Positions 3,426-29,206 of a DNA stretch of 48,157 nucleotides are shown here, one piece after another. Both the position numbers and the translations under genes were made by a program. Source of the stretch: SAR324 cluster bacterium (GTDB lineage: Bacteria; SAR324; NAC60-12); NCBI GenBank assembly GCA_028282505.1, contig JANQHV010000058.1, forward strand, positions 1 through 48,157, given 5' to 3'. The notes beneath the pieces are model-generated. The model was not told where the DNA came from. It worked only from the letters and a program-made list of their open reading frames with translations, and did not search any database. Each line of letters opens with the position of its first letter. The first letter of the stretch is position 1.

Positions 3426-5411
3426 TCATATAGAATCTTGGAAGATTGGCAAAGTAATAGTGGCAGTGGTCCCTTGTCCTACGCAGGATTCAAATGTCAG
3501 AGTTCCGCCATGTTCCTGAATAATGCTATCAGAAATTGATAAACCCAGTCCTGTTCCGCCCAACTCTCGTTTGGTGGTAAAAAAAGGGTCTTTGATATTT
3601 TTGAGAACATCCGCTGGCATTCCAATCCCTTCGTCTTTGACTTGTACTAAAACATGGTTCTGTTCCTCGTTCAAAGCAGTGGTCAAGGATATCTGTTTTT
3701 GAGAATCTGGCAATGCCTCACAAGCATTGATGATGAGGTTGATGATGACTTGTTCCAGGCGTTGGAAATTACCTCGAATTGCGGGCAATCTGGCTGCGCA
3801 TTCCAATACAAAATAGTGAGTGGCTTTTTTAATTTGATTTTGTGTGAGTGTGACCGATGAGCGAACCGCTTCGTTGATGGCAACTTTTTGATCCATCCCG
3901 GAGACATCCTGTCGGGCAAAATCTTTCAAGTTAGTAACAATGTCTTTGATTCGTTGAGACCCCTCACGAACTGCGGAAATCAGAATTGGGACACGCTCCC
4001 GGGCTGTACTGTATGGTATGGAACCAAGTGAAAAATCCTCGCCAGTGCTTTGATATTTGTCCAGGATTGGTACCAATTCCTGCCAAATATTTTCAAGAAT
4101 TGGTATATTGAGCATGATGAAACTATTGGGATTATTGATTTCGTGGGCGACTCCTGCGACTAACACTCCAAGAGAAGACAGTTTATCGGTTTGGATCAAT
4201 TGTTCGCGTTGGCGCTCTGCTTCTTGTTGTGCCTGTCTTTCTTTAGAAATATCAATACCAATCGAAACAACATGCAGGGAAGCTGTGACGTTGTCGTAAA
4301 AATATGACTTGTTCCAGGAAATTAACCGTTGCTCTCCTTGCTTGGTTTGCCAGTGATATTCGGTACTCAAAAAAAATTCTGTTTTCAGAAGTTGAGCAAA
4401 TTTTTCTTTCACCAACTCTTGTTCTTGGGGAGGTGGTAGTAATTCCCAAATACAATGGTCATGTACTTCTTCAAAAGAGTATCCACTCAATTTTTCACAG
4501 GCTTTGTTAAAACGGTCAATTTTTCCGTCCTTATCGCACACGACAATCAATGCCCTGGCTGTATCAAGAACCGCATTAATGAAGTTGCGCTCATTGCGTA
4601 ACATCTCTTCTGCTTTTTTACGTTCTGTGAGATCACGCACCGCTATTAACAAATGCGTTGCCCCTTGAAACAAAAAGCTTATCTTACGCACTTCGACATG
4701 ACGCCGAGAACCATCTTTACATATGATAACAGCTGATGAAAAAAATTGCTTTTTGGATTTAATTTGTTCCTTGCTCTCTCCAATGAGATGATTGTAGGCA
4801 GGATGAATTAATTTTTTCATCGGCATGTTGATCAATGATTCTCTGGAGTAACCATACATCTCACATGCTGCGGGATTGGCTTCTACAACCATTCCATCGA
4901 GGTTGACAATGAGAAATGTTTCAGCTGCGTTAAAGACCGATTGGTATAATTGTTCGCTTTCCCCAAGAGCCTTTGTGCGTTCCTCAACAATGCTTTGCAA
5001 GTGATTTTTTTCCTGACGCAATTGATCTTCTGCTTGTTTAATCCTCAATGCCACTTTGACTTGTGCCACTAACTCTGCTTCGTCAATGGGTTTTGCTAAA
5101 AAAGCATCCGCTCCGAGTTCCAGTCCTTTGATACGACTGTGTGAGTTGGTTTGAATCGCTGTTAGCATAATCACAGGGATACGTTTTGTGGTTTCGTTGG
5201 ATTTCAATTGCTGGCACACTTCAAACCCATCCATACCTGGCATGATGATGTCCAGTAAAATGGTATCTGGCATTTCAGCTTTTGCCTTTTCAATGCCTTC
5301 CAGTCCTGACTGAGCAGTAAGCACAGAAATATCAGGAATCAGGCTTTTGAGCAAAGCAGATAAAGTGATCAAATTATCAAGTTTGTCATCAATTGCTAAA
5401 ATCTTTATCAT
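3426..5411 (-). CDS. REC-PAS-PAS-histidine kinase
   Basis: 661 residues. An N-terminal receiver domain (about 1-120, phospho-acceptor D54 in LLDIIMPGMDG, conserved K107 in KP) is followed by a coiled linker and two PAS domains (about 150-265 and 275-392). Next come a dimerisation/phospho-acceptor helix with H423 in AGVAHEINNP and a C-terminal HATPase domain (N-box NLIINACEAL near 558; DEGIGMP; GGTGLGLSIS). The order receiver first, kinase last indicates a kinase whose activity is tuned by phosphotransfer from another kinase, plausibly CheA or the hybrid kinase encoded just upstream (10-bp gap). No membrane segment is seen, so it is cytoplasmic. It is the last gene of the ten-gene operon; AGAAGGATAATCC before the ATG supports the start. 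Confidence 0.92.
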   Translation of the reverse strand: MIKILAIDDKLDNLITLSALLKSLIPDISVLTAQSGLEGIEKAKAEMPDTILLDIIMPGMDGFEVCQQLKSNETTKRIPVIMLTAIQTNSHSRIKGLELGADAFLAKPIDEAELVAQVKVALRIKQAEDQLRQEKNHLQSIVEERTKALGESEQLYQSVFNAAETFLIVNLDGMVVEANPAACEMYGYSRESLINMPMKKLIHPAYNHLIGESKEQIKSKKQFFSSAVIICKDGSRRHVEVRKISFLFQGATHLLIAVRDLTERKKAEEMLRNERNFINAVLDTARALIVVCDKDGKIDRFNKACEKLSGYSFEEVHDHCIWELLPPPQEQELVKEKFAQLLKTEFFLSTEYHWQTKQGEQRLISWNKSYFYDNVTASLHVVSIGIDISKERQAQQEAERQREQLIQTDKLSSLGVLVAGVAHEINNPNSFIMLNIPILENIWQELVPILDKYQSTGEDFSLGSIPYSTARERVPILISAVREGSQRIKDIVTNLKDFARQDVSGMDQKVAINEAVRSSVTLTQNQIKKATHYFVLECAARLPAIRGNFQRLEQVIINLIINACEALPDSQKQISLTTALNEEQNHVLVQVKDEGIGMPADVLKNIKDPFFTTKRELGGTGLGLSISDSIIQEHGGTLTFESCVGQGTTATITLPIFQDSI

Positions 5412-5423
5412 GGATTATCCTTC

Positions 5424-8400
5424 TCACATCCATTTTTCAATTTTGTCTACGATTTCATCGACATCAATGGGTTTGGCAATATAATCATTGCAGCCCGCTT
5501 CTATGGTTTTCTCCCTGTCTCCTTTCATGGCACGGGCGGTTACGGCAATGACAGGGATCATTTGGGTTTGTTTGTGTTCTCTAATTTTTTGTACAACAGT
5601 GAAACCATCCATTTTGGGAAGTGCCATATCCAATAGAACCAGGTCTGGCAATTCAGATATTGTTTTTTCCAACCCCTCCAGACCATCGACTGCTTCTAGA
5701 ATTTCATATTTATCTTTTAGAATGGCTCTAATGAGCACCATGTTGTCTGGAGTGTCTTCGATCACTAAGATGATTGGTTTTTCTCTACTGGCTCTAGTAG
5801 CTATAGCGTCTTGGCTATTGGGGACAGGGTGAGAGGTTTCCTTTTCTGGAAGAGGGGATTCGGGAAAATTCTCAGCAATGGGAGCCAGCATATGCTGAAC
5901 CTTATGTAACAATCCATCCCGGTCCACATCTCCTTTTTGAATCAATTGCTGGATGTGATTGGAACTAAGTTTTGCCAGGTCTTCTTTTGTCAAATCTTTG
6001 GCTGTCAGAATGAGAACAGGAATTCCAGCAGTTGCCTCCATGCTGCGAATTTTTTCCAATACTGCAAACCCATCCACTTCCGGCATCATCAAATCGAGGA
6101 TAATGCCATCCGGAACAGTATGCTCTATGTAATCAATTGCTTCCTGACCACCACGAACGGCCTCTACTGAATATCCCACACCTTCCAATGTTCGTTTTAC
6201 CTGAGTGATGGCGATTTCATTGTCTTCAACGAGTAATAGGTGATGGCTTTCTTTTGTTTCAAGAGATCGAAGAGATTTGGATACTTTTTCAATTGTTGTT
6301 AATTGTTTTTCGATTTCTTGCAACAGAGATTTTGTATCGAGATTGCTTTTGCCCAGGATAGAAGAAGCATGGGTTTCCAGTTTGTTTTTTTCTTCTGTGG
6401 TCAAATCTTTGGCCGTGACTACAATCACTGGCAGATTTTTAGTGGACGGATCATTACGCAACCGGTCCAGTACCATGAACCCATCCATTTCCGGCATCAT
6501 CAAATCCAAGACAAGCACATCGGGAATTGATTGTTTCAGCAATTCCAGACATTTTCTACCGCTCTCTACAGAAATCACTTTCATTTTTTCTTCTTCAAGT
6601 ATTCTTGTCATTTCCAGTCGGTCAATTTTATTATCATCCACCACCATGATCGAATAAGGATGAGCCCCATCAATGGTTCGTATCTCTGAAATCAATATTT
6701 CTTTGTGGACAGGTTTGGTGAGGTAGCCGACAGCCCCTAAAGCAAATCCAGTTTCTTGATCATCAGCAACCGAAATAACAATAACAGGGATATTTGCTGT
6801 TTTTTTGTTCTTTTTTAAATTCTGTAAGGTTTCCCATCCATCCATTTCTGGCATGATCACGTCCAGGGTAATGGCAAATGGATGGTGAACTTCTGCCAGC
6901 TCCAATGCTTTTTGGCCAGATGTGGCGATAACCGTATGGTAGCCTTCTTCTGAAAGGTAATTAGAAATCATCGTCACTACCTGTGGATTGTCGTCCACAA
7001 TCAAAATCGTTTTTTTCTTGGATTGAGGTGTAGCCAAAGGAAAAGATAAGGGCTCATAAGTTGGTGCAATGCCTTGCCATTCAATAGGCAAAGTGATGAT
7101 AAATTTGCTTCCCTGTCCCAAGGTGCTTTGTACTGAGATGGTTCCACCGAGCATTTTTGCCGTTTTGTTGGCAATGGAGAGTCCTAACCCTGTTCCCTCA
7201 AAGCGACGGGAGGAGCTTCCATCCACTTGCCGGAACTCTTCAAAGATGTGAGGCACATCTTCTTTAGATATGCCAATACCCGTGTCCATCACCTGGATGA
7301 CAACGGCTTCTTTTTCTCGGAAAGCTTTAATATTGATACTGCCTTGCTCAGTGAATTTAACAGCATTGCCGATGATATTTTGCAGTATTTTATGTACCCT
7401 CAATTCATCACTTTCAATTTCAGGAAAATTATTCGCAATTTGTTGGGTGATGGTAATTCCTTTTTCTTTGGCAATCAGCTCCAGACTTTCTACAATCGTT
7501 TCGATGGTTGTTTCAGGTGAAAACCATCTGAGGGAAACATCCATGCGTCCTGCTTCTATTTTTGAAAGATCCAGGATGTCATTGATCAACGCAAGCAGTT
7601 GTTTGCCATTTCGCTCAATAATTTCCAGGTACTCTCCTTGTTCTGCAGAGAGATTATCTTGTGCCTGGAGGATCAAAACACGGGAAAGTGCCATGATGGA
7701 ATTGAGTGGAGTGCGGAGCTCGTGGCTCATATTGGACAAAAATTCACTCTTCAGTCGATTGGCTTCTTCCACTTGCTGACGTTGTGCTTCCAACTCAAGA
7801 TTTTGTTGCTGGAATTCTTCTGACTGGTTTTGCAGTTCAACGGCTTGGGCACGAAGTTCACCAGCTTGAGCTTCTAGTAAGACATTTTTATTTTGTAGCT
7901 CTTCAGCTAATTTCCTGGTGTTTTCGTTTGCCCAAAGGTTGGAAAAACTCGTATTGATTCCAATTGAAGCCTGGTTGACGATTTCCAGATGTTCCTTCGA
8001 ATAGCTATGGAAGCTGGCTAGAGTAATAATGGCCATGACCTCATCTCGGATGAGAATTGGTAGTGTGATCATTGCTGTCGGAGTTGCAGAACCAATAAAA
8101 GTTTTTAACTGAAAGACAGTGTCTTGAGGGATATTTTCGATGTGAGAAATTTGTTTGGATCTCAATGTTCTGCCTATTTCTCCTTCCATAGTGGCAGCAG
8201 CAAAGGGTTGCAGGAGATCACTATTTCCCCCAATTGAGGTAAAATGCTCAAATTGTTGTTGATCACCACTGAGCAAATAGAAAGCACCCAACTGAGAATC
8301 GGTAATTTCCATGATGTCTTTGAGCAGCTCCCTGCTAAAATCAGATACATCTTTTGCTGCGACCATCGTATCGTTGATCTCTGCCACTCCATGTTGAATT

Positions 8401-9554
8401 TTCATTTGGACTCGCATGGATTCTGCCATATTGTTGAAAGAATTTGCCAGGTAACCCAGTTCATCTCCTGTCTTTAAATCCACCTTTACTGTCAAGTCTC
8501 CTTGTGACATACGGTCTAAGGCCCGAACCAGAGTCTGAATGGGTTGTTTGATGGTCTGACTGATAAACGTACCAAATAAAAAGGCCAGCAAGAAGGCTGA
8601 CAGACTGGTAACCAGCATCCAGATACGTGTTTGTTCAAGGGCTTTTCCTAAATCGAGCAATCCTTTGTCCATGGTATCATGAATCAATTCTTCGGCATCG
8701 TCTGCTGTTTGGATGAAAGTAGAGAATTGCTCGTTAAATGTCTCCTCCAAATCTGACATCACTTTGTTGTAGTGCGTTGTGGTTTCATAACGCTCTTCCG
8801 CGACTTTGATGAATGCCACGATACGTTGACTCAAGTCTTCCACCTGATCTTTTCCGATGATAGGAGCCAGTGTTTCAAAAATGGCTTTAGCCGAGTTGAA
8901 ATCATCCAGAATGTCTTCCATCCTGTTGGACATATCACCAGAAAGCAGCTCCTCTAGAAAAAGATGGCCCTTTGTCAGCAAGAATTTGGTTTCTCCAATT
9001 TTGAACACAATCTCAGTCTCCTGGGCTTCATTCTTATATTGAGCACTGATTCTATCGAGGTTTTTCATGATGCTTCGATACAGCCCATCGAAATTTTGGT
9101 CAATGGCGCTGCCCGCACTGGAAGTTTGTTTGCTGGCCAAATAGCGTTTACGGCTTATCTGGAGAAACGACTCTATCTTTTGTTGGGTTTGTGTGATTTT
9201 TTCTCGAACATCCGGATCATTGCTGGCAATGAAACGGCCTTCATCATTTTCATCACCTCTCAGGATAGCGTTGCTATACCAGAGTGATTCCTGGAGTAAA
9301 TTCCATACTTTTTCCTCTTTGAAATCATCAGGATTTTTTATCAACTCATCTAGAGATACACGGGCCATCGCTGCTGTCAGCTTGATTTCCATAGCAGCGT
9401 CTCCTAATGGTGCCAACTCCATTCCAACAATTTCCCCTTTTTCCCCAATATAATTGGTGAGATAGGTGCCCATCATCCCTGTCATTCCTGCAATGACAGC
9501 AACCAACAGGAATGCCAGCATCAACCGGGTTCCAATTTTCATTTGTGTCTGCAT
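5424..9554 (-). CDS. MCP-sensor hybrid histidine kinase with four receivers
   Basis: 1376 residues using the ATG at 9554. An in-frame start at 9713 would overlap the cheR gene by over 130 bp, whereas the 9554 ATG has AGGGAAACAAC before it and begins 22 bp after cheR. Order: TM1 (about 8-30), extracytoplasmic helical bimodular sensor (about 35-305), TM2 (308-331), HAMP (332-384), GAF (405-540), a glutamine-rich coiled coil (540-600), HisKA with H611 in SNMSHELRTPLN, HATPase (about 720-840), then four receiver domains starting near 849, 962, 1104 and 1260. All four keep the phospho-Asp motif (DVIMPEMDG, DLMMPEMDG, DLMMPEVDG, DMALPKMDG). The N-terminal sensor is clearly paralogous to that of the MCP encoded four genes upstream. 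Probably membrane-bound and part of the same sensory pathway; the purpose of four serial receivers is unknown. Confidence 0.93.
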   Translation of the reverse strand: MQTQMKIGTRLMLAFLLVAVIAGMTGMMGTYLTNYIGEKGEIVGMELAPLGDAAMEIKLTAAMARVSLDELIKNPDDFKEEKVWNLLQESLWYSNAILRGDENDEGRFIASNDPDVREKITQTQQKIESFLQISRKRYLASKQTSSAGSAIDQNFDGLYRSIMKNLDRISAQYKNEAQETEIVFKIGETKFLLTKGHLFLEELLSGDMSNRMEDILDDFNSAKAIFETLAPIIGKDQVEDLSQRIVAFIKVAEERYETTTHYNKVMSDLEETFNEQFSTFIQTADDAEELIHDTMDKGLLDLGKALEQTRIWMLVTSLSAFLLAFLFGTFISQTIKQPIQTLVRALDRMSQGDLTVKVDLKTGDELGYLANSFNNMAESMRVQMKIQHGVAEINDTMVAAKDVSDFSRELLKDIMEITDSQLGAFYLLSGDQQQFEHFTSIGGNSDLLQPFAAATMEGEIGRTLRSKQISHIENIPQDTVFQLKTFIGSATPTAMITLPILIRDEVMAIITLASFHSYSKEHLEIVNQASIGINTSFSNLWANENTRKLAEELQNKNVLLEAQAGELRAQAVELQNQSEEFQQQNLELEAQRQQVEEANRLKSEFLSNMSHELRTPLNSIMALSRVLILQAQDNLSAEQGEYLEIIERNGKQLLALINDILDLSKIEAGRMDVSLRWFSPETTIETIVESLELIAKEKGITITQQIANNFPEIESDELRVHKILQNIIGNAVKFTEQGSINIKAFREKEAVVIQVMDTGIGISKEDVPHIFEEFRQVDGSSSRRFEGTGLGLSIANKTAKMLGGTISVQSTLGQGSKFIITLPIEWQGIAPTYEPLSFPLATPQSKKKTILIVDDNPQVVTMISNYLSEEGYHTVIATSGQKALELAEVHHPFAITLDVIMPEMDGWETLQNLKKNKKTANIPVIVISVADDQETGFALGAVGYLTKPVHKEILISEIRTIDGAHPYSIMVVDDNKIDRLEMTRILEEEKMKVISVESGRKCLELLKQSIPDVLVLDLMMPEMDGFMVLDRLRNDPSTKNLPVIVVTAKDLTTEEKNKLETHASSILGKSNLDTKSLLQEIEKQLTTIEKVSKSLRSLETKESHHLLLVEDNEIAITQVKRTLEGVGYSVEAVRGGQEAIDYIEHTVPDGIILDLMMPEVDGFAVLEKIRSMEATAGIPVLILTAKDLTKEDLAKLSSNHIQQLIQKGDVDRDGLLHKVQHMLAPIAENFPESPLPEKETSHPVPNSQDAIATRASREKPIILVIEDTPDNMVLIRAILKDKYEILEAVDGLEGLEKTISELPDLVLLDMALPKMDGFTVVQKIREHKQTQMIPVIAVTARAMKGDREKTIEAGCNDYIAKPIDVDEIVDKIEKWM

Positions 9555-9576
9555 GTTGTTTCCCTGAGTGGTTTTT

Positions 9577-10410
9577 TCATAGTTGCTGTTTCTGATAAAT
9601 ATGACAGCATTCATTAACCTTCTTAAAATATTTTTGATACTTGATTGGTGGTATTTCAAATTCTCCCAGCACCAAAAAACCGTTTTCTGCAAGTGAACGG
9701 TATAGTTTTTCAAACACGATATCTTGAGGTTCTTGTTCGAGATAAATCAAGACGTTGCGGCAAAGGACAATGTCAAAGTTGGCAAACACACTTTCTGGTG
9801 GAGCATAACTTTTTTTATCCAATAAATTAAAAAAAGAGAATGCCACCAGTTCTTTTATTTCGGGTTTTAGCTGGAAAGACATTTCATTCATCACAAAATG
9901 TTTTTTCAGCAGTCCATATTTGACATCTTCCACACTTTCTAAGGGATATTTTCCAGTTTGTGCTGCCTGGATGGCTTTTTGGTCAATGTCTGTTGCAAAG
10001 ATATCCAGATCTATTTTGTAATTTTGTTTTGCCATGAGTTCTTGCAAGAGGATTGCAATTGAGTATGCTTCTTCCCCATGAGAGCATCCTGCTGACCAAA
10101 TTCGTAAAGAAGAATTTTTCTGCTCCATTTTTTTCAAAAGGATTGCTGGCAAAATTTGATGATCAATGACTTCAAACGACCAGGTATTTCGAAAGAATCG
10201 ACTGACGTTGATGGTTAACGCATCCAGGAGTTCATGGGTTTCATCAGGATTTTTTTCCAGGAAATCCAGATATTCAGCATAACTTGCACTTTGTGTTTCT
10301 TCCAGTCTTTTACAGACTCGATTTTCCACAACAGAAAGACGATATCCAAAAAAGTTGAGATTTATTTTTTTTTCAAGAAATTGAAGAATCAATGGAAGTT
10401 GCTGTTTCAT
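9577..10410 (-). CDS. cheR: CheR-type protein-glutamate methyltransferase (copy 2)
   Basis: 277 residues. It has an N-terminal helical CheR domain (to about 80) and a C-terminal SAM-binding domain with IWSAGCSHGEEAYSIAI (motif I), the DIFATDID acidic loop, and FDIVLCRNVLIYLE. It transfers methyl groups from SAM to receptor glutamates for adaptation. Second of two adjacent cheR genes, only 8 bp after the other. It diverges strongly from its neighbour, so the pair is not a recent duplication; each may serve a different receptor (the MCP and the MCP-like kinase are the obvious candidates, by inference). No TPR extension is present. Confidence 0.92.
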   Translation of the reverse strand: MKQQLPLILQFLEKKINLNFFGYRLSVVENRVCKRLEETQSASYAEYLDFLEKNPDETHELLDALTINVSRFFRNTWSFEVIDHQILPAILLKKMEQKNSSLRIWSAGCSHGEEAYSIAILLQELMAKQNYKIDLDIFATDIDQKAIQAAQTGKYPLESVEDVKYGLLKKHFVMNEMSFQLKPEIKELVAFSFFNLLDKKSYAPPESVFANFDIVLCRNVLIYLEQEPQDIVFEKLYRSLAENGFLVLGEFEIPPIKYQKYFKKVNECCHIYQKQQL

Positions 10411-10418
10411 GTCTACTC

Positions 10419-11279
10419 TCAGATTTTCTTATAAACAATGGTAGCTCCATAACGTAAAGAGCTGAACTTGTCTGTCATGCCATAGATATTTTCTGAAGAA
10501 CCCAGCAGAAAAAAACCATCGTTGGCAAGCATTTGGTAGAATTGATCAAAGATCCGGGTTTTGGCATTATCATCAAAATAGATCAGCACATTGCGGCAGA
10601 AAATGACATCAAAACTACCTAAGGTATTGAAAGGATTGATTAAATTGATTTGCCGGAATTCCACCATGCTGCGAAGTGCATCCTGGATCACCCACTCATT
10701 CCCTTTTTTTTCAAAATATTTGTCTAGATATCCTGGTGGCAATCCACGTTTGATTTCCATTTCGTTATATTTTCCAGCCAGTGCTTTTGCCAAGGCTTCT
10801 GTAGATATATCAGTTGCCAGGATTCTGAAATCGTCTTGCGCAATGTCAAGATATGCATTAGCCCTTGCGTATTCATAAATGAGCATGGCCAGTGTGTAAG
10901 GTTCTTGACCCGTGGATGAGGCAGCTGACCAGACATTTACCTTTGCTCCTCTTCTTGCGGTATTTCGTTGTTTGCGTTCCCGAATCATTTTGCCCAGCAC
11001 GGGGAGAATGTGATCCCGAAATGCCTCAAATGGATGGATATCTCGAAAAAATGAGGTTTCGTTGGTAGTGATAGCATCAATCACCAATTCTTTGGTGTTG
11101 GGTGAAAAGCTTTTGGTAATTTTGTGATAATATTCAGCAAAACTTTTGCAGTTGGACGCTCGCACCAACGGTTCGAGACGTTGCTGAACCAGATACTGTT
11201 TATTATCCTGAATAGAAATGCCACAAATCTCATGAATGTAATTTCGCAACAGATTGAATTCTTCCTGGGATAGTTCCAT
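10419..11279 (-). CDS. cheR: CheR-type protein-glutamate methyltransferase (copy 1)
   Basis: 286 residues with the standard CheR layout. The N-terminal domain starts ELSQEEFNLLRNYIHEICG. The SAM domain has VWSAASSTGQEPYTLAM, ILATDIS and FDVIFCRNVLIYFD, and LLGSSE lies near the C-terminus. It methylates chemoreceptor glutamates and is the expected partner of CheB (50 bp upstream). Placed between cheB and the second cheR in the operon. This copy matches classical CheR proteins more closely than the next one and is the better candidate for serving the MCP. Confidence 0.93.
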   Translation of the reverse strand: MELSQEEFNLLRNYIHEICGISIQDNKQYLVQQRLEPLVRASNCKSFAEYYHKITKSFSPNTKELVIDAITTNETSFFRDIHPFEAFRDHILPVLGKMIRERKQRNTARRGAKVNVWSAASSTGQEPYTLAMLIYEYARANAYLDIAQDDFRILATDISTEALAKALAGKYNEMEIKRGLPPGYLDKYFEKKGNEWVIQDALRSMVEFRQINLINPFNTLGSFDVIFCRNVLIYFDDNAKTRIFDQFYQMLANDGFFLLGSSENIYGMTDKFSSLRYGATIVYKKI

Positions 11280-11328
11280 TGATGTGCTCAGTTGAGTATT
11301 TTAATGTTTGTTGTTTTCTACTTTCGAA

Positions 11329-12417
11329 CTATTGTGTTTCACCATAAACAATTCTAGCCACCGCCTCTGGTATTTTTAACAATGGCAGGACAATGTCCAC
11401 GTGTCCCGATTCTATAGCACTGCCTGGCATCCCCCAGACAACACTGGAAGATTCATCCTGGGCAATGATCTCGGCACCTGCTCGCTTCAGAGTTCCAATG
11501 CCTTTTACTCCATCATCTCCCATTCCTGTAAGAATTATGGCAACTACGTTTCCTCCAAATACAGGAGCTGCTGAACGAAAGAGCACATCAACCGAAGGGC
11601 GACAGCCTTTTTCCGGAGGCTGTTGATTGGTAATGATGACTATTTTGTTTTCCTGCCTCCTAATCAGCATATGCCCCCCTCCAGGAGCAATATAGACATG
11701 ATGTGTTTGAACGGGAGTGGTCTCAGTGACTTCAATGACCGTATGAGAACATATCCGATCCAGACTGTTTGCCAGAGATTCTGTAAAAGTAGAAGGCATG
11801 TGTTGGACAATAAAAATGGGCAGATCTACTTTTTGACAGAGAACTGGCAAGATGGTAACAAGTGCCTTGGGTCCTCCAGTAGAAGTTCCGATTAAGATGG
11901 CTTGTATGTGTGTCGAACGAGGAGCACGAGAAATATTTAGAAATGGAGACTTAGAAACCACAAAACGGGATTTAGTCGCAGAATCGGGATGTTGGGAAGT
12001 AAACAGTCGGATTTTGGCTTTGAGCTTCCGGCTTAGTAAACCTAGACTGTTTTCCAGTTTTTCTGTTTCAGGTTTTGTAATAAAATCAAAAGCTCCAGCT
12101 TCCAGTGCTTCGATGGTAATCTCAGCACCTTGACGAGTGAAGGCGCTAAGCATGATGACACCAATTGGCGGTAAATCGTCGTGAGATTGATTGATGGCTT
12201 CAATGGCTTTCAGGGTTTCCAGTCCATTCATGTCTGGCATTTCGACATCCAGGGTAACCAGATCTGGGCGGGTGGACTGAATAAACTCCAGTGCTTTGAT
12301 CCCGTTTCGGACGGAGCCAATGACTTCGATATCTTCTTCATCTGCCAGACTTTCTTCAACAATACTGCGGAAGATCCGTGAATCATCGACGATCAGTACT
12401 TTTGTTTTGGAACTCAT
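11329..12417 (-). CDS. cheB: CheB receptor methylesterase/deamidase
   Basis: 362 residues. Receiver domain (1-125) with D57 in VTLDVEMPDMNG, a linker, then the catalytic domain with the Ser-His-Asp set: S179 in LIGTSTGGPKAL, H206 in FIVQHMPS and D302 in LTGMGDDG. It removes methyl groups from receptors when phosphorylated by CheA, the counterpart of CheR. It lies 15 bp after the MCP gene, inside the operon. All key residues are present, so it should be active. Confidence 0.95.
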   Translation of the reverse strand: MSSKTKVLIVDDSRIFRSIVEESLADEEDIEVIGSVRNGIKALEFIQSTRPDLVTLDVEMPDMNGLETLKAIEAINQSHDDLPPIGVIMLSAFTRQGAEITIEALEAGAFDFITKPETEKLENSLGLLSRKLKAKIRLFTSQHPDSATKSRFVVSKSPFLNISRAPRSTHIQAILIGTSTGGPKALVTILPVLCQKVDLPIFIVQHMPSTFTESLANSLDRICSHTVIEVTETTPVQTHHVYIAPGGGHMLIRRQENKIVIITNQQPPEKGCRPSVDVLFRSAAPVFGGNVVAIILTGMGDDGVKGIGTLKRAGAEIIAQDESSSVVWGMPGSAIESGHVDIVLPLLKIPEAVARIVYGETQ

Positions 12418-12432
12418 CGTTGTATCGTCGTT

Positions 12433-14631
12433 CTATGTGATCGACCTCTCCTCGTTGAAATTATTGGCCACCATTTCGTTAGCAGGATTGACCACCAACG
12501 CACTGGTCATCATTTCGTTTTCTACTTTGAATTTGCTGGTCAGTTCTTGGATTTCACTGGCAATTTTTGTCAATTCATCAGCAGAGAGGTTGACCTGTTG
12601 TGCTCCTGAGTTTGTTTCATCAGCTACCTTGTTCACTCCCTGAATATTTTGGGACACTTCGTCAGCGCCCTTAGCCGCTTCTCCTGCATTGTTGGACATA
12701 TCGTTGGAACCTTTGGCAACTTCAGCAATCGAAGAGGCAATATTGTTCACACCTGCATTGGATTGAGCAACATTGGAAGAGATGTCATTGGCCACGCTGG
12801 TTTGTTGTTCCACAGCATTGGTGATCACACCAACAGACTCATTGATGTTTTTGATGATCTCTGAAACCCGATCAATCACTTTGACTGCATTTTCTGTATT
12901 GGTTTGCACACCTTCAATACGATTGGTAATATCCTCTGCCGCCTGGGCACTTTGATTGGCCAACTCTTTAATTTCGTTGGCAACCACAGCAAACCCCTTA
13001 CCCGCATCTCCAGCAGAAGCAGCTTCGATGGTCGCATTGAGTGCCAGGAGATTGGTCTGTTCGGCAATACGCTTGATCACTTCAGTCACTTGACCAATAT
13101 CTTTGGCAGCAGTCCCCAACGTATTCATCATTTCAGTCGCATCCAGAGATAGGGTCATTGCCTGTTCTGAAATTTTTGAGCCATCCTGAGCATTTTTGGC
13201 AATGTTGTTGATGGCAGTGCTCATTTCTTCAATGGCAGCAGCGACAGCATTCATATTGGTTGACATTTGTTCGGCTGCTGAAGAAACACTACTGGCATTA
13301 ACACTCATTTCTTCGGCGGCTGCTGCCATGGTATTGATATTGGTTGACATCTCTTCAGTGGCGCTGGCGGCATTATTGTACTGCATTGTCATTTGCTCAG
13401 AACCTGAAGCCAGTTCTGCAGAAATAGTATTCAGTTTTGAAGATGAATTGGCCAATACCCCGGTGTTGTTCTTGATTTGAATGATCATATTGGCTAGGTT
13501 ATTGACCGTATGATTGAACAAGCGTGACATATTGCCCAACTCGTCCTGGGTGTTAATATCAGTTTTGACAGTCAGGTCTCCAGTGGATAATTTATTCAGG
13601 GCATCTACCATTGCTTCAATGGGGCGTTTGATGGTGCCACTGATGAACACACCAAGGATCACCGCAATGGCAAAGGAAAAAAAGATGGTGCCAAACATGT
13701 ATAACTGTGCCTGACTAATTCCATTTTTCAAATCAGCTATTCCTTTTCTCATATCATCATGAATCAATTCTTCTGCTTCATCTGCAATTCTGACAAAAGA
13801 TTCAAACTGGGTATCAAACATTTCATCGGCTTCACCTCCTGCAGAGGAAGTCTGTTGACTGACTTTGTATCTCTCCTGGGTGGTCGCGATAAAACCTTTT
13901 AGATTTTCGATCAAATCACTGACATTATTTTGACCAATCACACTCCCGATTTGATGGATGTTTGCCTGAGCTTTGTCAAAGCTGGATAAAATATCGACGA
14001 TTTTTGCTTCATCGTCGCCAGCAAGCAACTCTTCCAAAAATAAGTGACCATCAGCCAAGAGAAATCTAGATTCACCTGCTAATTGAATAATAGATAGATG
14101 ATTGGGTTGGTTATGTTTTTCAATAATTGCCGCTAATCCTTCTTGCAAATTCTCATACTGTTTATCAAAAGCTTGATCGACATCACTTCCTATTGTTACG
14201 GAATTGGAACGTTGATCATACCGTTGATGAGCACCGGCAATAAACCCCTCTACACTGACTCGGACTTCTCGAATCTTTTCGCGCACTTGTGGATTTTTTG
14301 TAGCAACAAAAATGCCTTCATCGTTTTGTCCTCCTTTGAGGATGGCATCACAATACCAGAGGGTTTCATCTAAAAGTTTCCATACCTGGTTTATATCTTC
14401 AGAAGTATCACCAGCGAGAATTTCCTCAAACAGGAGGTGAGCCGTTGTGGCGGTGAGCTTGATTTCCATGGCAGCATCCCCCAAAGGAGCCAGTTTTGCC
14501 CCCACATTTTCGCCGCGTTCACCAACATAACTGGAAAAATGCATGCCAATCATCCCTGTGATTGCTGTAATGACGGCGACCAAAAGAAATGTGCTGATCA
14601 ATCTTGGTCCAATTTTCATTCCTGTTCCCAT
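12433..14631 (-). CDS. Methyl-accepting chemotaxis protein
   Basis: 732 residues. TM1 near 8-31, extracytoplasmic helical domain about 33-305, TM2 about 308-330 (YMFGTIFFSFAIAVILGVFI) and HAMP (331-385). A long cytoplasmic helical hairpin follows, with the trimer-contact tip EQTNLLALNATIEAASAGDAGKGFAVVANE around 520-560. The sensor consists of two similar halves, each ending in an RY...QTSSAG...D..FD-like segment, i.e. a bimodular helical fold. The same sensor is found in the hybrid kinase downstream. No NWETF-type tail for CheR/CheB docking is present (ends EERSIT). Located between cheW and cheB; probably the dedicated receptor for this CheA. The ligand cannot be told from sequence. Confidence 0.95.
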   Translation of the reverse strand: MGTGMKIGPRLISTFLLVAVITAITGMIGMHFSSYVGERGENVGAKLAPLGDAAMEIKLTATTAHLLFEEILAGDTSEDINQVWKLLDETLWYCDAILKGGQNDEGIFVATKNPQVREKIREVRVSVEGFIAGAHQRYDQRSNSVTIGSDVDQAFDKQYENLQEGLAAIIEKHNQPNHLSIIQLAGESRFLLADGHLFLEELLAGDDEAKIVDILSSFDKAQANIHQIGSVIGQNNVSDLIENLKGFIATTQERYKVSQQTSSAGGEADEMFDTQFESFVRIADEAEELIHDDMRKGIADLKNGISQAQLYMFGTIFFSFAIAVILGVFISGTIKRPIEAMVDALNKLSTGDLTVKTDINTQDELGNMSRLFNHTVNNLANMIIQIKNNTGVLANSSSKLNTISAELASGSEQMTMQYNNAASATEEMSTNINTMAAAAEEMSVNASSVSSAAEQMSTNMNAVAAAIEEMSTAINNIAKNAQDGSKISEQAMTLSLDATEMMNTLGTAAKDIGQVTEVIKRIAEQTNLLALNATIEAASAGDAGKGFAVVANEIKELANQSAQAAEDITNRIEGVQTNTENAVKVIDRVSEIIKNINESVGVITNAVEQQTSVANDISSNVAQSNAGVNNIASSIAEVAKGSNDMSNNAGEAAKGADEVSQNIQGVNKVADETNSGAQQVNLSADELTKIASEIQELTSKFKVENEMMTSALVVNPANEMVANNFNEERSIT

Positions 14632-14646
14632 ACGTTCCTCCTTCGC

Positions 14647-15111
14647 TTAAAGTACTTTCAAAAAATTTCTTGCTTGTAAAATGACAAGCAGGATTTCTTG
14701 CAATTGGCAAACTCCGATGATTAACTCTTGTTTACGTTTATCCTGTTCATTCAGATCTGCAGAAGTTGGTTCAGCGATCCGATAGTCTTCAATCAGATGT
14801 TCTTCGACTTCCTTGACATCATCGATCTGATCGACCAGGACGCCGAATGCTTGGCCTGCGGTAGGTTTGAACAGGATAATACGACTGGATCGGGTGATGG
14901 TTCCTTTTTCAAATCCAAGCAACAGGCGTAAATCCAGAACCAGGTGAATTTGTCCTCGAATGTTGACATACCCCCTTACCTCTTCAGGGGCATGAAAAAT
15001 AGGAGTTACGGCCACTTCTGGATTGATCTCTTTGACGTCTAGAATATTTACTCCAAACAAGCGTTCAGACAGCCAGAACGTGCAGAATTGATGCTTGTTA
15101 TTGGTTTCCAT
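14647..15111 (-). CDS. cheW: CheW coupling protein
   Basis: 154 residues, a single CheW domain: FCTFWLSERLFGVNILDVKEI at the start, then EEVRGYVNIRGQIHLVLDLR (the conserved NxRG turn) and FGVLVDQIDDVKEV. It links MCP signalling tips to CheA. Lies 18 bp after cheA and 15 bp before the MCP. The C-terminus (ELIIGVCQLQEILLVILQARNFLKVL) is slightly longer and more hydrophobic than usual; no reason is evident. Confidence 0.95.
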   Translation of the reverse strand: METNNKHQFCTFWLSERLFGVNILDVKEINPEVAVTPIFHAPEEVRGYVNIRGQIHLVLDLRLLLGFEKGTITRSSRIILFKPTAGQAFGVLVDQIDDVKEVEEHLIEDYRIAEPTSADLNEQDKRKQELIIGVCQLQEILLVILQARNFLKVL

Positions 15112-15129
15112 GGTTTTTCTCTCCTCAGA

Positions 15130-18100
15130 TTATGCTGCCATTTGAATTTGCATGAGTTCGGCAACTCTGACTAAGAGTTGTTCTCGTTCAATTTTGGTTT
15201 CGTGTCCATTGAATCCTGCTTCGTAGGTTCGCTCCTTATCGATTTCTGAATCAAGGGAAGTCAGGGCAAGAGACGGAATGGTTTGCAGGGCTTCTTCTGC
15301 ACGGACTGCTTTCATGAACGTCCAGCCGTTCATAATCGGCATTTCAATATCAGACACAATCAGATCAACGGTTGTGTCATGCAATACTTCCAAAGCACGT
15401 TTTCCATTTTCTGCAGTAAAAACTTCGTAGCCATCGGCCTCCAGATAGCCTTTCACCAATTGCTGGAAAAAAACCGTATCTTCTACCAAAAGGATTCGTT
15501 TTCTCTCTTGTGGAGAAGGTGCATTTTTTCTTCGTTCGATAAACCAATCGGGCTCTGCTTTTTCCACCAGACGATAGATATCAATGAACAACGTCATCTT
15601 GTCTTCGATTACCGCAGTTCCCATTAGGCCATCCTCCATGTAACTGTCGGTACTTAGGTTCACTTCTGTTTCCAGGACATCCACCACATTGGAAATGAGG
15701 ATGCCAACGGGATGTTTGATGTGTTTGGGAAGCAACAACAGGATGGTATCTTTTTCAGGACAGGGAGAAACGTTGAGGTGTTGTTCCATTTTGAGAATCC
15801 GAGTAGAAACACCATCAATGGTTACAAATTCTTTCTCACCAACCCGCTCTACCTGAGAAAGAGGAATTCGTTCGATGCGTCGGATCAGGGGCAGAGAAAT
15901 GGCAAATTGCTCTTGCGGTCCACTTTTAAATAAGAGGATCGATTGGGTTCTTTCTTTCAGAACAGCTTGCTCTTTTTCTTCCAATTCTGGTTCCGGTTCA
16001 GAGATTGTTTCTGCACAGGCGTGCTGTATCAGTCCTTCGATATCGAGAATCATGGCAACTTTGCCATCGCCCATCACAGTGGCGCCAGAATAGATTCTCA
16101 GTTTCTTCACGGCAGGATGCATGGGTTTAACAACGATTTCCTCCGTTCCTAACACGTTATCGACAATCAGGCCAAAACGTCTGGCCCCCACTTTGAGTAC
16201 CGAAAAAATAAGAGACTGTGCATTCTGTTCTTCCAGAATTTTCTTGGCCAATTGGCGATAATGACTGGTAATTTCAGCCAGTATATAATCGTTAAATGGT
16301 TCTGGTCGTTGAAGCACTTCATTCAGCCTGACCATAGGCAGTAAATGATCCCGCAGCCGATATACTTCCTGGTTGCCTGCACATTCGATACGATGAAAAA
16401 TATCCTCATCATAGAGGCGCACCAGTTCTACCAAATTGACCTGTGGAATGGCATAACGCAAGCCCAGGCTCTCAACGATAAGGCAGGGAATAATCGCCAA
16501 TGTGAGAGGGAGACTCAAACGAAGAGAAGTGCCTTCTCCAAAAGTGGATTCGAGATCAATGGTCCCACTAAGCTGCTCAATAGAAGTGCGGACAACGTCC
16601 ATTCCCACACCTCGTCCGGACACATCACTGATCTTTTCTGCGGTAGAAAAGCCAGGCAACATGATCAATGATAAGATTTCTTTGTCATTCATCTGAGCCA
16701 ACTCCGCTTCTGTTCTCATGCCATTTTGCAGGGCTTTCTTTTTGATGGCTTCCGGATCAATCCCTTTGCCGTCATCACGAATTTCAATATTGATGTGTCC
16801 TGCTTCATGAAATGCTCTGACCTGAATGGTTCCTTCTGGATTTTTTTCAGCCTCCATTCTTTGTTCTGGGCTCTCAATTCCGTGATCACAGCAGTTACGA
16901 ATCATATGCGTCAGTGGATCTGCCAATAATTCCAGGATTGTTTTGTCTAATTCTACTTCGGAACCAATGGTGGTGATTTCAATTTTTTTGTCGAGCTTCT
17001 TGGAAAGGTCTCGCACAATGCGCGGCAGTTTGCCAAATACATTGCCAATCGGTTGCATGCGAGTGCGCATCACACTTGCCTGAATTTCAGTAGTAACTAA
17101 ATCCAGGCGTTGGGAAATATCACGGGAAACCGGGTCCGATTTATCCACAGATAACAATTGTTGATTTCGCACCAACACCAGTTCTCCTGCCAATGTCATT
17201 AATTCATCAAGGATGTCCACTGAAATCCGAATCGTGTCGGTATGCTCATGACTTTTGGGCTCTATTCTGGTGGGTCTTTTAGGAGGAGGTGTCTTGTCGG
17301 CCTCTTTTGAAAGTTCTGCTTCTTCTTGTGTCGGTTGACTTGTTTTGGGTGGTTTTTGCTCGTTTTTGACTACATCGGATGCCGTTGCTTTTTGGAGATC
17401 TTCCTGATGGACTTCAATCACACCCTCTTCCGATAAGTTCACCGCTTTGCAAAGGAGTTCCTTTTCCATGATGGTCGAATACAGGGCATGATACAGTAGA
17501 GGCTTGTCCTCCAAAGTGTCGGAAAGATCATTGGCAGGAGAGTCTAATTTTCCATCAATAATCAAACCCATGCTCAAAAGATTGCGAATCAAAGTGCCTG
17601 GGGTTTCTCCATTGTTTTCAGCCAGTTTGGATAAGTCGAACTTTAGCACAAACAGATTGTTATGAGAGGCAGGCAGGTTGTTTAGTTCGAACTCGCTGAT
17701 TCGAAAACCAACCTTTTGGTTCTCATCATCCAGCATGGAAACATTGGTTTCCATTTCTTTCTTAATTTCAGAAGATGAAGTTTGGGCGATCAGATTGGAG
17801 AGACGATCATGGATTTCTTCAATGTCCATTTCATTGCTGTTTCCTGCGTCATCGAGCATGGTGGCCAATAGATCAACTCCGGAAAGAAGGGCATCGACAT
17901 ATTGGGCTTCCGGAGTGATTTCACCGTTTCGCATCATTTGGAGCATGGTTTCCATGGTATGTGCCAATTTATTGATTTTGACAAAACCAATAAATCCCGC
18001 AGCCCCTTTGATGGAGTGCATGGCACGAAACAGATGATCAATGACAGATGGCACCGGCACTCCTCCTTGTTTTTCCAATTCCAGGAGGTCTTTTTCGATG

Positions 18101-18162
18101 GTTTCTAGATGTTCTTTGGATTCAGCAACAAATTCGTCAACAATGGATGAATCAAAAGCCAT
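15130..18162 (-). CDS. cheA: CheA histidine kinase fused to a receiver domain
   Basis: 1010 residues. Hpt domain with H49 in LFRAMHSIKGAAGF. A 100-residue region (about 130-260) that may be P2-like or structural. A charged linker. Dimerisation (about 315-385). HATPase (about 430-570; ADPLTHMIRNCCDHGIE, DDGKGID, SGRGVGMDVV). A first CheW-like domain (about 575-740), a second CheW-like segment (about 755-875, CheW-like turns but no NIRG) and a C-terminal receiver (about 889-1010; DIEMPIMNG). In the receiver the usual K-P pair is replaced by TKIE. GGAGG sits 8 nt before the ATG. It phosphorylates CheB, its own receiver and probably the REC-PP2C protein at the head of the operon (inference); no separate CheY gene lies in the cluster. 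Confidence 0.94.
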   Translation of the reverse strand: MAFDSSIVDEFVAESKEHLETIEKDLLELEKQGGVPVPSVIDHLFRAMHSIKGAAGFIGFVKINKLAHTMETMLQMMRNGEITPEAQYVDALLSGVDLLATMLDDAGNSNEMDIEEIHDRLSNLIAQTSSSEIKKEMETNVSMLDDENQKVGFRISEFELNNLPASHNNLFVLKFDLSKLAENNGETPGTLIRNLLSMGLIIDGKLDSPANDLSDTLEDKPLLYHALYSTIMEKELLCKAVNLSEEGVIEVHQEDLQKATASDVVKNEQKPPKTSQPTQEEAELSKEADKTPPPKRPTRIEPKSHEHTDTIRISVDILDELMTLAGELVLVRNQQLLSVDKSDPVSRDISQRLDLVTTEIQASVMRTRMQPIGNVFGKLPRIVRDLSKKLDKKIEITTIGSEVELDKTILELLADPLTHMIRNCCDHGIESPEQRMEAEKNPEGTIQVRAFHEAGHINIEIRDDGKGIDPEAIKKKALQNGMRTEAELAQMNDKEILSLIMLPGFSTAEKISDVSGRGVGMDVVRTSIEQLSGTIDLESTFGEGTSLRLSLPLTLAIIPCLIVESLGLRYAIPQVNLVELVRLYDEDIFHRIECAGNQEVYRLRDHLLPMVRLNEVLQRPEPFNDYILAEITSHYRQLAKKILEEQNAQSLIFSVLKVGARRFGLIVDNVLGTEEIVVKPMHPAVKKLRIYSGATVMGDGKVAMILDIEGLIQHACAETISEPEPELEEKEQAVLKERTQSILLFKSGPQEQFAISLPLIRRIERIPLSQVERVGEKEFVTIDGVSTRILKMEQHLNVSPCPEKDTILLLLPKHIKHPVGILISNVVDVLETEVNLSTDSYMEDGLMGTAVIEDKMTLFIDIYRLVEKAEPDWFIERRKNAPSPQERKRILLVEDTVFFQQLVKGYLEADGYEVFTAENGKRALEVLHDTTVDLIVSDIEMPIMNGWTFMKAVRAEEALQTIPSLALTSLDSEIDKERTYEAGFNGHETKIEREQLLVRVAELMQIQMAA

Positions 18163-18185
18163 AGTGCCTCCGTTGATGTACTTTT

Positions 18186-18923
18186 TTATGCCGTTGGAGA
18201 AATTCTGTATGTTTTATCCAATCCCGTCATGTGAAATAAGTTAACCAAGTCCGAATTAACATTAATAATTTCTAAATCAGGAGTATTGCTATCGTTTGAG
18301 AGCATTTTGGACAAGATGATGAAAACACTCAAACTGACCGAATCCATATCTTCCACTTGTTTCAAATCAAAACGATATCGAGCACTTCCCTGTTGGACAA
18401 GATCATGCAATAAAATCCTGAATTTATTGGCAACAGTTGCGGTGATATCCCCAGAAGGTGTGATGATTTGCCAGTTATTTTCCTCGTGAGTGACAAACTC
18501 GGTTTCTCTGCTCATACGGAGATAAACCGTAGTTTGATTGCCTTTTTCATTGAATAGGATTTTTTCGGTAAAGGATTTGATCAACGCGTAACCTCGATGA
18601 CGCACCTGGCGTGGATCTTCAGGAATGGCCATGTCCAGATTTTTGTAATCAAATCCATCTCCTTCATCTTCGACGGTTACTTTAAACAGCACATCTTCCA
18701 CTTGCTCGACAGCACAGTGGACGGTACGATCTGGGTTGTTCTGATTGCCATGTTCAATGGCATTAATCAACAGTTCTCTGATCACAATTTTGAATTCTGA
18801 GATGATTTTTAATTCGAGTTGTTCCAGAAATACATCCACCTCACCAATAATCCGGTCGACATTTCGCATTTTGGAAGAAATTTCAAATTGGATAGCGGAT
18901 GCTTCTTCTTTCACACTGAACAT
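18186..18923 (-). CDS. Anti-sigma-type ATPase fused to a STAS domain
   Basis: 245 residues. The N-terminal half (about 10-140) is a GHKL ATPase of the RsbW/SpoIIAB type, with ELLINAIEHGNQ (N-box), VEDEGDGFDY and HRGYALIKSF in the place of the G-box. The C-terminal half (about 150-245) looks like an anti-anti-sigma STAS domain, with MDSVSLSVFI where DSxGLxV is usual (Gly replaced by Ser). In partner-switching systems these two are normally separate proteins that bind each other; here they are one chain. It lies between the REC-PP2C phosphatase (15 bp upstream) and cheA (23 bp downstream), suggesting that the phosphatase dephosphorylates this STAS domain. Whether the kinase phosphorylates its own STAS or targets something else is open. 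GGGGGG precedes the ATG. Confidence 0.85.
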   Translation of the reverse strand: MFSVKEEASAIQFEISSKMRNVDRIIGEVDVFLEQLELKIISEFKIVIRELLINAIEHGNQNNPDRTVHCAVEQVEDVLFKVTVEDEGDGFDYKNLDMAIPEDPRQVRHRGYALIKSFTEKILFNEKGNQTTVYLRMSRETEFVTHEENNWQIITPSGDITATVANKFRILLHDLVQQGSARYRFDLKQVEDMDSVSLSVFIILSKMLSNDSNTPDLEIINVNSDLVNLFHMTGLDKTYRISPTA

Positions 18924-18938
18924 AACTGTCCCCCCCTG

Positions 18939-20207
18939 TTACAAGATGTGTTCTACATTTTCCATGACGGGTTTTGGGTGTATTTCTGGTTGCTCTGGGA
19001 TTTCCAGACCAACCAGCAGCATGTCGTCATGAGGTTTATACTCGCAAAAGTCCAGGATGTTCTCCCAGACTTGATCCACGGCATTTTCTAAAGATAATTC
19101 CTGATACTGTTCAAATAAACTTTTTAAGCCATCAGTATTCAATTTTTCTTTTCGTTTTGTTTGAACATTAAAGCGCTTTGCTGAAGAAATTCCATCGGTG
19201 TGGAGCAGGAAACGGTCTCCAGGAGCAATCGGGAAGGTACGGATATCGAATTCAGCTTTCTCAAAGAGCCCCAAAACGCTGCTGCTGACAGTAAATGTCT
19301 GGGCATGATTGGCCTTCTTTTGTAGAAAAATGGGAAAAGGATGGGCCGCTGAAATTAAATCGCCCTGCATTTTTTGTAGGTTGAGACGCAAAAAAAGAGC
19401 CGTCACCATGCGTTCATTCTCTCCTTTGTCCAGCAGTTGTTGATTGAGCAATTGGAAAAATTCCAGACCATCCTTGCCAGTACGGCAATTCTCGTCAAAG
19501 AATGCTTTAATGAGGATTGTATGATAAGACGCACCCATGTCGTGTCCTGCGACATCTGCAATCAAGATGTCACATCCGGTAGGCGTGTTTTGAATATCGA
19601 TAAAGTCGCCTCCCAGTTCGGCAAAAGGGTTATTCCTCCATACGGTTTTGACTTTATAGCCATGTTTTTTCAATTGGACTAATTCGCGGTAGACATTGAC
19701 TGCGGAATTGACCTGTTCTTTCAATTTGGAAAAGTTGTTTTGATAGCTTTCAATTTCTCGGTTCAACTCAGCCTGCTTTTCCTCCATTTGTCGAATGTTG
19801 TTTTCCCATTGTGCGTTGAACTCTTCCTGACGTGCTAAAACATTGGCCACACGCTTCAGTACCTCGTCCGGGGTTAAAGGCTTGTCCAAGTACTCACAGC
19901 ATCCTTTGCGCAGCAGCTCCAGTACCAGTTCTTTGTCTCCATAACCGGTGATGACAATCACTGGCAATAAAATGTTGCGAGACTGGAGAGCGTCGATCAA
20001 CTCTAAACCGGTCATGTGAGGCATTTGAATGTCGGTTAACAGGAGATCAAATGGCTCTGCCTCTTTTTCTTTTTGTAAAATCAGTTCAAGGGCTTCCTGG
20101 CCATTATTGACCATTGTCGCCTCATATCCCGCATCGGCAAGAATAAAGGAAAGGGACATGCGGAGATTGGGCTCATCATCGGCGATAAGAATTTTTTTGT
20201 ATTTCAT
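18939..20207 (-). CDS. Receiver-PP2C (SpoIIE/RsbU-type) phosphatase
   Basis: 422 residues, first gene of the operon. Receiver domain (1-120; DD at 10-11, phospho-site D59 in LTDIQMPHMTG, K109 in DKP), then a coiled coil (about 125-180). The C-terminal SpoIIE/RsbU-type serine phosphatase domain (about 185-405) keeps the metal-binding acids: GGDFID (199-201), IADVAGHDMG (D218, H222) and PHDDMLLVG near the end. Phosphorylation of the receiver, most likely by CheA, is expected to switch the phosphatase, which would act on a phospho-STAS protein such as the fusion encoded next. The whole layout is that of RsbU-like regulators; the CheA link is inferred from operon position. Confidence 0.93.
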   Translation of the reverse strand: MKYKKILIADDEPNLRMSLSFILADAGYEATMVNNGQEALELILQKEKEAEPFDLLLTDIQMPHMTGLELIDALQSRNILLPVIVITGYGDKELVLELLRKGCCEYLDKPLTPDEVLKRVANVLARQEEFNAQWENNIRQMEEKQAELNREIESYQNNFSKLKEQVNSAVNVYRELVQLKKHGYKVKTVWRNNPFAELGGDFIDIQNTPTGCDILIADVAGHDMGASYHTILIKAFFDENCRTGKDGLEFFQLLNQQLLDKGENERMVTALFLRLNLQKMQGDLISAAHPFPIFLQKKANHAQTFTVSSSVLGLFEKAEFDIRTFPIAPGDRFLLHTDGISSAKRFNVQTKRKEKLNTDGLKSLFEQYQELSLENAVDQVWENILDFCEYKPHDDMLLVGLEIPEQPEIHPKPVMENVEHIL

Positions 20208-25474: not shown

Positions 25475-25986
25475 TCACGGGGAGCGCTTCCTTTTGCAGA
25501 AGAAGACTTTTTGAAAAAAGGAAGTAGCAGCAGCTCCAAAGGCCAGAATGTGTGCAAGAGAATAATGACTTCTGGAGGGAACTTGAGGGCAATCCCTTTA
25601 TTTCTGGAAAAATAGGCTGTCAAGCCTCCACCCAATATATAAGTGATAAATAACAATACCCCTTGCCAATGAATCATCGTGTTATCACTTGGCTGAGGCA
25701 CACTATTCTGTTTTATGGAGACATGCTCAGTTTGACTGTTTTCTTCCGTCTCAACAGTTTCCTCTTCAACTTCCTCATCCCAATTTATTCCAGATAATGT
25801 CCCTTTTGAGTCAACAGGAGTTGTTTCTTCTGTTTCCTCTTCATCCCAATCTACTTCTGAAAAGTTCACTTCTGTCGAAGCAGGATCATCTGTGGTTTCG
25901 AGAGTCTGGGCTATTACTTCAATGTGACTCATCACAAGAAACCACGTGATCGCAAGAAATACCAGGACAGAGCTTTTTTTTATCAT
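25459..25986 (-). CDS. Acidic-repeat membrane protein coupled to the transporter
   Basis: 175 residues, family not recognised. N-terminal signal peptide (about 1-27, ends VIAQ). A highly acidic exported segment with two WDEE units ([10 protein letters not shown] and [10 protein letters not shown]) reaches to about 90. A transmembrane helix (about 108-128, [18 protein letters not shown]) is followed by a second hydrophobic run (about 139-158, [19 protein letters not shown]). The ATG overlaps the stop of the permease gene in an ATGA, so it is translationally coupled to the nucleoside transporter. The Glu/Asp-rich tail could bind cations or a basic partner. A remnant of a second copy lies at 22938-23042. 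Confidence 0.8.
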
Positions 25987-26909: not shown

Positions 26910-26923
26910 CGTACACTTTCAAC

Positions 26924-29199: not shown

Positions 29200-29206
29200 G
29201 CTTCGT

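Follow-up and report, generated by a model that had tools for sequence, protein, structure and literature searches.

In the F7 stage-1 clusters of V. cholerae and M. alcaliphilum, which have no known output, che genes stand beside genes for a serine phosphatase and for antagonists of anti-sigma factors (PMC7184735). CheS of S. meliloti and A. fabrum, a STAS protein, is the product of a che-cluster gene and, in S. meliloti, was shown to bind CheA; it is a stand-alone protein working with two CheYs, and no kinase or PP2C partner is described (PMC12654446). The RsbK-RsbM-RsbY stress module of B. cereus joins a hybrid kinase, a methyltransferase and a receiver (REC)-PP2C phosphatase to an RsbW/RsbV-type pair, with SigB in the cluster and no array (PMC4574943). 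STAS genes have been noted in che clusters of Campylobacterota, and the same article cites SiaABCD of P. aeruginosa, a PP2C/kinase/STAS switch with the diguanylate cyclase SiaD as its output (PMC9239204). The F5 systems of R. centenum, A. brasilense and A. caulinodans contain a CheA of the layout Hpt-dimerisation-HATPase-CheW-CheW-REC (PMC10542144). The locus described here is a ten-gene operon in a 48,157-nucleotide stretch of DNA from a SAR324 cluster bacterium (contig JANQHV010000058.1; hereafter the window), in which genes for a REC-PP2C, an RsbW-type kinase and a STAS domain precede cheA, and the encoded CheA has this same F5 layout.

The operon resembles the F7 stage-1 clusters in combining a che cluster with an antagonist and a serine phosphatase, and differs from them in that they contain CheY and CheD and have another gene order. 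It resembles RsbK-RsbM-RsbY in layout, and differs from it in encoding an array and no SigB and in the fusion of its RsbW- and RsbV-type domains. It contains no gene of the SiaD kind, and none for FlgM or HsbD, reportedly the output of HsbR-HsbA, another PP2C/kinase/STAS switch of P. aeruginosa. An earlier first-pass annotation, made from the sequence alone, had called the operon the best candidate for an undescribed system. With the F7 stage-1 clusters, CheS and RsbK-RsbM-RsbY as precedents that claim has to be narrowed to the PP2C-kinase-STAS-cheA arrangement in an F5-type lineage, of which no description was found in the open-access literature.

The ten genes are all on the minus strand, from 20207 to 3426, with intergenic gaps of 8-49 bp, as the first-pass annotation had described (gaps of 50 bp or less). 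This spacing includes a corrected start for the hybrid kinase gene, which was moved from the listed TTG at 9713 to an ATG at 9554 because the former would give a 137 bp overlap with the second cheR. From the head of the operon, Pfam identified a SpoIIE-type serine phosphatase with a receiver (REC-PP2C, 18939..20207; Response_reg 3.9e-26, SpoIIE 2.5e-32), a kinase-STAS fusion (18186..18923) and a CheA-REC (15130..18162), followed by CheW, a methyl-accepting chemoreceptor (MCP), CheB, two CheRs and two histidine kinases. These assignments agreed with the earlier domain calls, with some corrections: the CheA has two CheW domains in addition to its REC, and the protein listed as ATPase-STAS is more exactly an HATPase_c_2 kinase of the SpoIIAB/RsbW type fused to a substrate domain of the SpoIIAA/RsbV type.

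The residues expected of a partner switch are in place in both proteins. The REC-PP2C, the sole dedicated output-type response regulator among the operon genes, has D10, D11, D59, T87 and K109 in its receiver, and D201, D218, D338, D394 and D395 in its phosphatase, so that the metal-binding Asp set of PP2C/SpoIIE is intact. In its structural model (predicted local distance difference test score, pLDDT, 86.8) a long linker helix, residues 113-177, joins receiver to phosphatase, and the best PDB match was 3eq2, a two-component response regulator. The fusion matched SpoIIAB (1th8, E 1.6e-8) and RsbV (6m36, E 8.9e-6) by phmmer, and its model matched SpoIIAB, RsbV and SpoIIAA structures by Foldseek; a single chain therefore holds a kinase of the anti-sigma type together with its own domain of the substrate type. 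The N and G boxes of the serine kinase half are intact, and S195 aligns with S58 of SpoIIAA, making it the candidate phosphoserine of the STAS half. The domains of the fusion were modelled confidently (pLDDT 85), whereas the predicted template modelling score of 0.61 means that docking of STAS on the kinase is not read from the model. A serine kinase, a STAS domain with a phosphorylatable Ser and a PP2C with metal-binding Asp residues are thus all encoded at the head of the operon.

The CheA contains an Hpt domain with H49, dimerisation and HATPase domains, two CheW stretches and a C-terminal REC with D938. Two CheW domains and a REC are the published F5 CheA architecture, and almost all two-CheW CheAs are F5 (PMC10542144). 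Pfam found two to three CheW stretches and a REC in 8 relatives of the window CheA, the split third CheW match in Desulfobacteraceae CheAs being explained in the same article. Alphaproteobacterial CheA-REC loci, presumed F5-like, branched beside the window CheA lineage in quick trees. The E. coli F7 CheA fell outside the CheA-REC clade with branch support of 97-100, in a quick, midpoint-rooted tree with this single F7 reference. The alphaproteobacterial loci seen had CheY-like genes and no PP2C, kinase or STAS; in the window operon the partner-switch module replaces or joins such CheY-like genes. The locus thus has the appearance of an F5-type chemosensory operon, by CheA architecture, with a putative serine-phosphorylation partner switch built into it.

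The first-pass annotation had proposed a search for this gene order in other genomes and had named lack of conservation in relatives as a refuting outcome; the core order in fact recurred in distant relatives, so that its reading survived this check. Among 52 genomes of the window's phylum (Pfam check on a subset), only G018 had PP2C, kinase-STAS, CheA-REC, CheW and MCP in succession, after which its contig ends. Elsewhere in the phylum, kinase-STAS preceded CheA-REC in G015; STAS preceded CheA-REC in G051, with a REC-PP2C-HATPase downstream; a REC-PP2C-HATPase adjoined CheA at a contig end in G048; and STAS lay beside CheA-REC in G006, G043, G044, G045, G047 and G049. When the C-terminal part of CheA was compared with 84,980 species genomes, giving at least 80 loci, the triad of PP2C, kinase and STAS preceded cheA-REC on its own strand in at least nine, with a check by Pfam (L072, L073, L087, L097, L100, L106, L126, L127 and L150; in L106 another open reading frame lies between kinase and STAS). 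These nine span at least Thermodesulfobacteriota, Planctomycetota, Verrucomicrobiota and Acidobacteriota, which with the window's own phylum makes at least five phyla; most genomes with the module are metagenome bins, from independent assemblies. The order PP2C, kinase, STAS, cheA-REC, cheW/MCP, cheB, cheR was kept from Acidobacteria to Desulfobacteraceae, with identities over the C-terminal part of CheA from 31% (Acidobacteria) up to 56% (Desulfobacteraceae). STAS was directly upstream of cheA in at least 27 annotated loci (L055 and L096 being the same contig) and downstream in none of that set.

Because the core order recurs in at least five phyla, the genetic link between switch and array is real: on gene order, triad and cheA are a conserved unit, and the partner-switch module is genetically wired to the chemosensory operon. 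This conservation refutes, for the triad, mere co-location of unconnected genes in a signalling-rich genome, an explanation that we regard as very improbable for the locus as a whole and that may still apply to the two terminal kinases. Such co-location would be in keeping with the many REC-PP2C relatives and at least ten cheA genes encoded in the genome, with the genus mate G001, in which no close match to the window PP2C, fusion or CheA was found, and with other cheA loci of the same genome. Nine other cheA genes were examined there, in 8 loci: a STAS gene comes directly after one of them, and a STAS or RsbW-type gene lies near two more. Against it, none of these nine had the triad beside cheA, and the operon PP2Cs largely form a clade of their own: 10 of 14, the window's included, grouped together (95/83) to the exclusion of 25 paralogues, those of L127, L086, L057 and L062 falling elsewhere.

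Active-site residues were likewise conserved in the modules. The receiver Asp was kept in 13 of the 14 readable REC-PP2Cs, the PP2C Asp residues were invariant across the aligned operon PP2Cs, the kinase E/N/D/G residues were kept save in one gapped row, and the phospho-acceptor His of CheA was kept in 90/92. In a CheA tree of 103 rows, made by a quick method, every locus with STAS or kinase beside cheA belonged to a single group of 74 rows, and such loci occurred on both deep branches of that group. The patchy distribution of the module in this tree means that it has been lost repeatedly or gained by transfer. The rows nearest the window were Anammoxibacter and Desulfobacteraceae, outside its own genus, a pattern suggestive of transfer. 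Protein distances correlated with those of CheA by Mantel r of 0.52 for the PP2C, 0.68 for the kinase and 0.80 for STAS.

The explanation that best fits these data, to which we give about an even chance, is an array-driven cascade from CheA through the REC-PP2C to a STAS switch opposed by the kinase half. By homology, the receptors and CheW would control CheA, and CheB and CheR would adapt the receptor. Phosphorylated CheA would hand its phosphate to the receiver of the REC-PP2C, and the activated phosphatase would dephosphorylate S195 in the STAS half, which the RsbW-type kinase half would re-phosphorylate. The phosphorylation state of STAS would then set its binding partner, either CheA and the array, in a CheS-like feedback loop, or an unlinked target protein. 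A fuller version, in which phosphorylated CheA activates the REC-PP2C and so frees STAS for CheA or an unlinked effector, with CheB/CheR adaptation setting the state of the partner switch throughout a widespread CheA-REC lineage, is put forward tentatively, as somewhat less likely than not.

Several observations weigh against this cascade. The receiver of the G018 REC-PP2C ortholog (L036:4404-5651) has lost the acidic pair, Asp, Thr and Lys while its PP2C is intact, and phosphotransfer from CheA to PP2C is thus not universal. The first-pass annotation had proposed the same route from CheA through REC-PP2C to STAS; the residues of the window protein fit it, whereas the G018 receiver and the presence of a hybrid kinase as another plausible phosphodonor for the REC-PP2C do not favor it. 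STAS also adjoins cheA where PP2C and kinase were not seen and where its Ser is replaced, indicating that phosphorylation is not its sole role. The STAS Ser was present in 12/12 full modules and in 10/15 other STAS genes (one-sided p 0.037, without correction for relatedness), a comparison in favor of the cascade but a weak one; it was replaced by Gly in L052, Ala in L058 and L067, and Pro in L090 and L118, all with STAS beside cheA-REC and no full module in view. Congruent trees are a sign of co-inheritance, not of phosphotransfer. Finally, the idea that the partner switch replaces CheY in module loci was dropped, as its nominal Fisher p of 0.022 was gone with independent pairs allowing for relatedness.

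The retention of STAS beside cheA when kinase and PP2C were not seen, in some loci even without the Ser, together with the binding of CheA by CheS in S. meliloti, points to CheA itself as a plausible target of STAS. In its strict form this would mean that the PP2C/kinase pair governs STAS-CheA binding and tunes phosphate flow through CheA, so that the switch acts on the array, as feedback or input, and not downstream of it. The divergence of STAS tracks CheA best of the three proteins and the operon encodes no other target; however, the correlation is also expected from adjacency and co-inheritance alone, the two CheYs with which CheS works have no counterpart in the operon, and the likeness to CheS is drawn from descriptions of that protein. 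We consider this strict form unlikely.

It is also conceivable, though unlikely, that the hybrid kinase and not CheA drives the switch, as in an RsbK-RsbM-RsbY-like stress module sharing operon and sensor with the array. The hybrid kinase (5424..9554) consists of a sensor-HAMP part, GAF, a Gln/Glu-rich coiled coil, HisKA-HATPase and four RECs, and thereby resembles the CHASE3-HAMP-GAF-S-helix-HK-CA-REC layout of RsbK (PMC4574943), although Pfam gave no CHASE3 call. Directly upstream, in an RsbM-like position, is the second, divergent CheR (9577..10410; 30% identical to the first by BLASTP), and a cheR followed by hybrid kinases was also found in L100 and L150. The sensor-HAMP part was 44% identical to that of the operon MCP over 393 amino acids (BLASTP), which makes it probable that the two proteins read similar signals; one stimulus may thus feed array and phosphorelay alike. 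The first-pass annotation had called this protein an MCP-sensor hybrid kinase, which is correct for the common sensor-HAMP part; the protein has no MCP signalling domain. Conversely, in L072, L073 and L106, where the whole triad precedes cheA, no hybrid kinase was found on the strand of cheA over a distance of about 9 kb. Most other full modules had no hybrid kinase in view, leaving CheA as the constant neighbour of the REC-PP2C. On the favored explanation, the hybrid kinase and the last gene of the operon, a REC-PAS-PAS-histidine kinase (3426..5411), are local additions, probably feeding the same receivers.

A sigma factor such as the RsbK-like alternative would call for was not recovered: no SigB/F/G-type sigma factor exceeded the family cut-off in the 52 genomes of the phylum, all 52 having sub-threshold matches alike. 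One such match, of about 255 amino acids at G000:C233, is probably FliA, since flhF/flhG/flhA/flhB-like genes adjoin it. The search for a co-occurring sigma factor or diguanylate cyclase proposed in the first-pass annotation thus gave no candidate in the operon, as neither is encoded by any of the ten genes, and no sigma factor was found among the operon's near neighbours in the window.

The absence of CheY, flagellar and pilus genes reported earlier holds for the operon, although flagellar genes are present elsewhere in the genome. The flhA-, flhB-, flhF- and flhG-like genes and the FliA-like sigma factor on C233 (L161, G000:C233:1-8000) were recognized in the protein sequences by eye; in addition, three FliM homologues exceeded the cut-off (loci L176 and L177, listed with L161). 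Judging from gene content, the source organism is probably flagellated even though no flagellar genes lie in the window. A placement of the genome in KSB3/Modulibacteria was dropped on the same ground, since published genomes of that group have no flagellar genes (PMC4312070). With an F5-type CheA and these genes in one genome, CheYs from other loci may allow the array to act on motility as well, and F5 CheAs studied in alphaproteobacteria control chemotaxis. The earlier view that the output is something other than motility is therefore not supported.

For many chemosensory systems no output is known. In this operon a candidate for an output or feedback arm is encoded alongside the array; its active-site residues are intact and it recurs across distant phyla, which makes signalling from His-Asp to Ser/Thr phosphorylation by a receptor array directly testable. 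The operon also connects two findings that have no agreed explanation: the presence of antagonists and a serine phosphatase in F7 stage-1 clusters, and the CheA-binding STAS proteins of the CheS type. Should the fuller version of the cascade hold true, we know of no earlier chemosensory system in which a Ser/Thr partner switch has been shown to serve the system itself as output or feedback arm.

The remaining array genes, also on the minus strand, encode CheW (14647..15111; Pfam 5.8e-22), the MCP (12433..14631), which has an N-terminal sensor region, HAMP and an MCP signalling domain (MCPsignal 8.7e-32), CheB, a REC-methylesterase (11329..12417), and the first CheR (10419..11279). Unrelated genes flank the operon, separated from it by 596 bp on the upstream side and by 337 bp on the downstream side. 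A foreign origin by composition was discarded (G+C fraction 0.425 in the operon and 0.427 in the window), a promoter and terminator scan gave no clear excess over shuffled sequence, and a search of a plasmid collection with the fusion returned one weak, partial relative.

Variants of the arrangement were seen in other loci. In L072 (2433-4652) the kinase-STAS is fused behind a REC and an NMT1_2 domain, which is substrate-binding-like, possibly a ligand-sensing version of the switch. A REC-PP2C-HATPase protein, presumably of HsbR-like layout, is encoded downstream of cheA-REC/cheW/cheB/cheR in L062 (4146-6779) and L057 (7619-10285). A REC-HEAT-repeat fusion lies directly upstream of STAS-cheA in L067 (13043-14725), and REC genes of similar length occupy the same place in L055 and L068, HEAT repeats being known for L067 only. 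In alphaproteobacterial relatives (L125, L149, L187 and similar) a ChpT-like gene lies upstream of cheA-REC; L187, from an Azospirillum plasmid, also has ctrA and fliI on the downstream side.

Elsewhere in the window, a further PP2C output protein, AAA_16-TPR-GAF-SpoIIE, is encoded at the window end (44071-48156). A 3068-amino-acid protein with Kelch/laminin-G/PKD repeats is encoded at 34631-43837, and a nucleoside-type ABC transporter (Bmp/PnrA, two permeases and an ATPase) and an adenosine deaminase are encoded at 25983-31779, likely as one operon.

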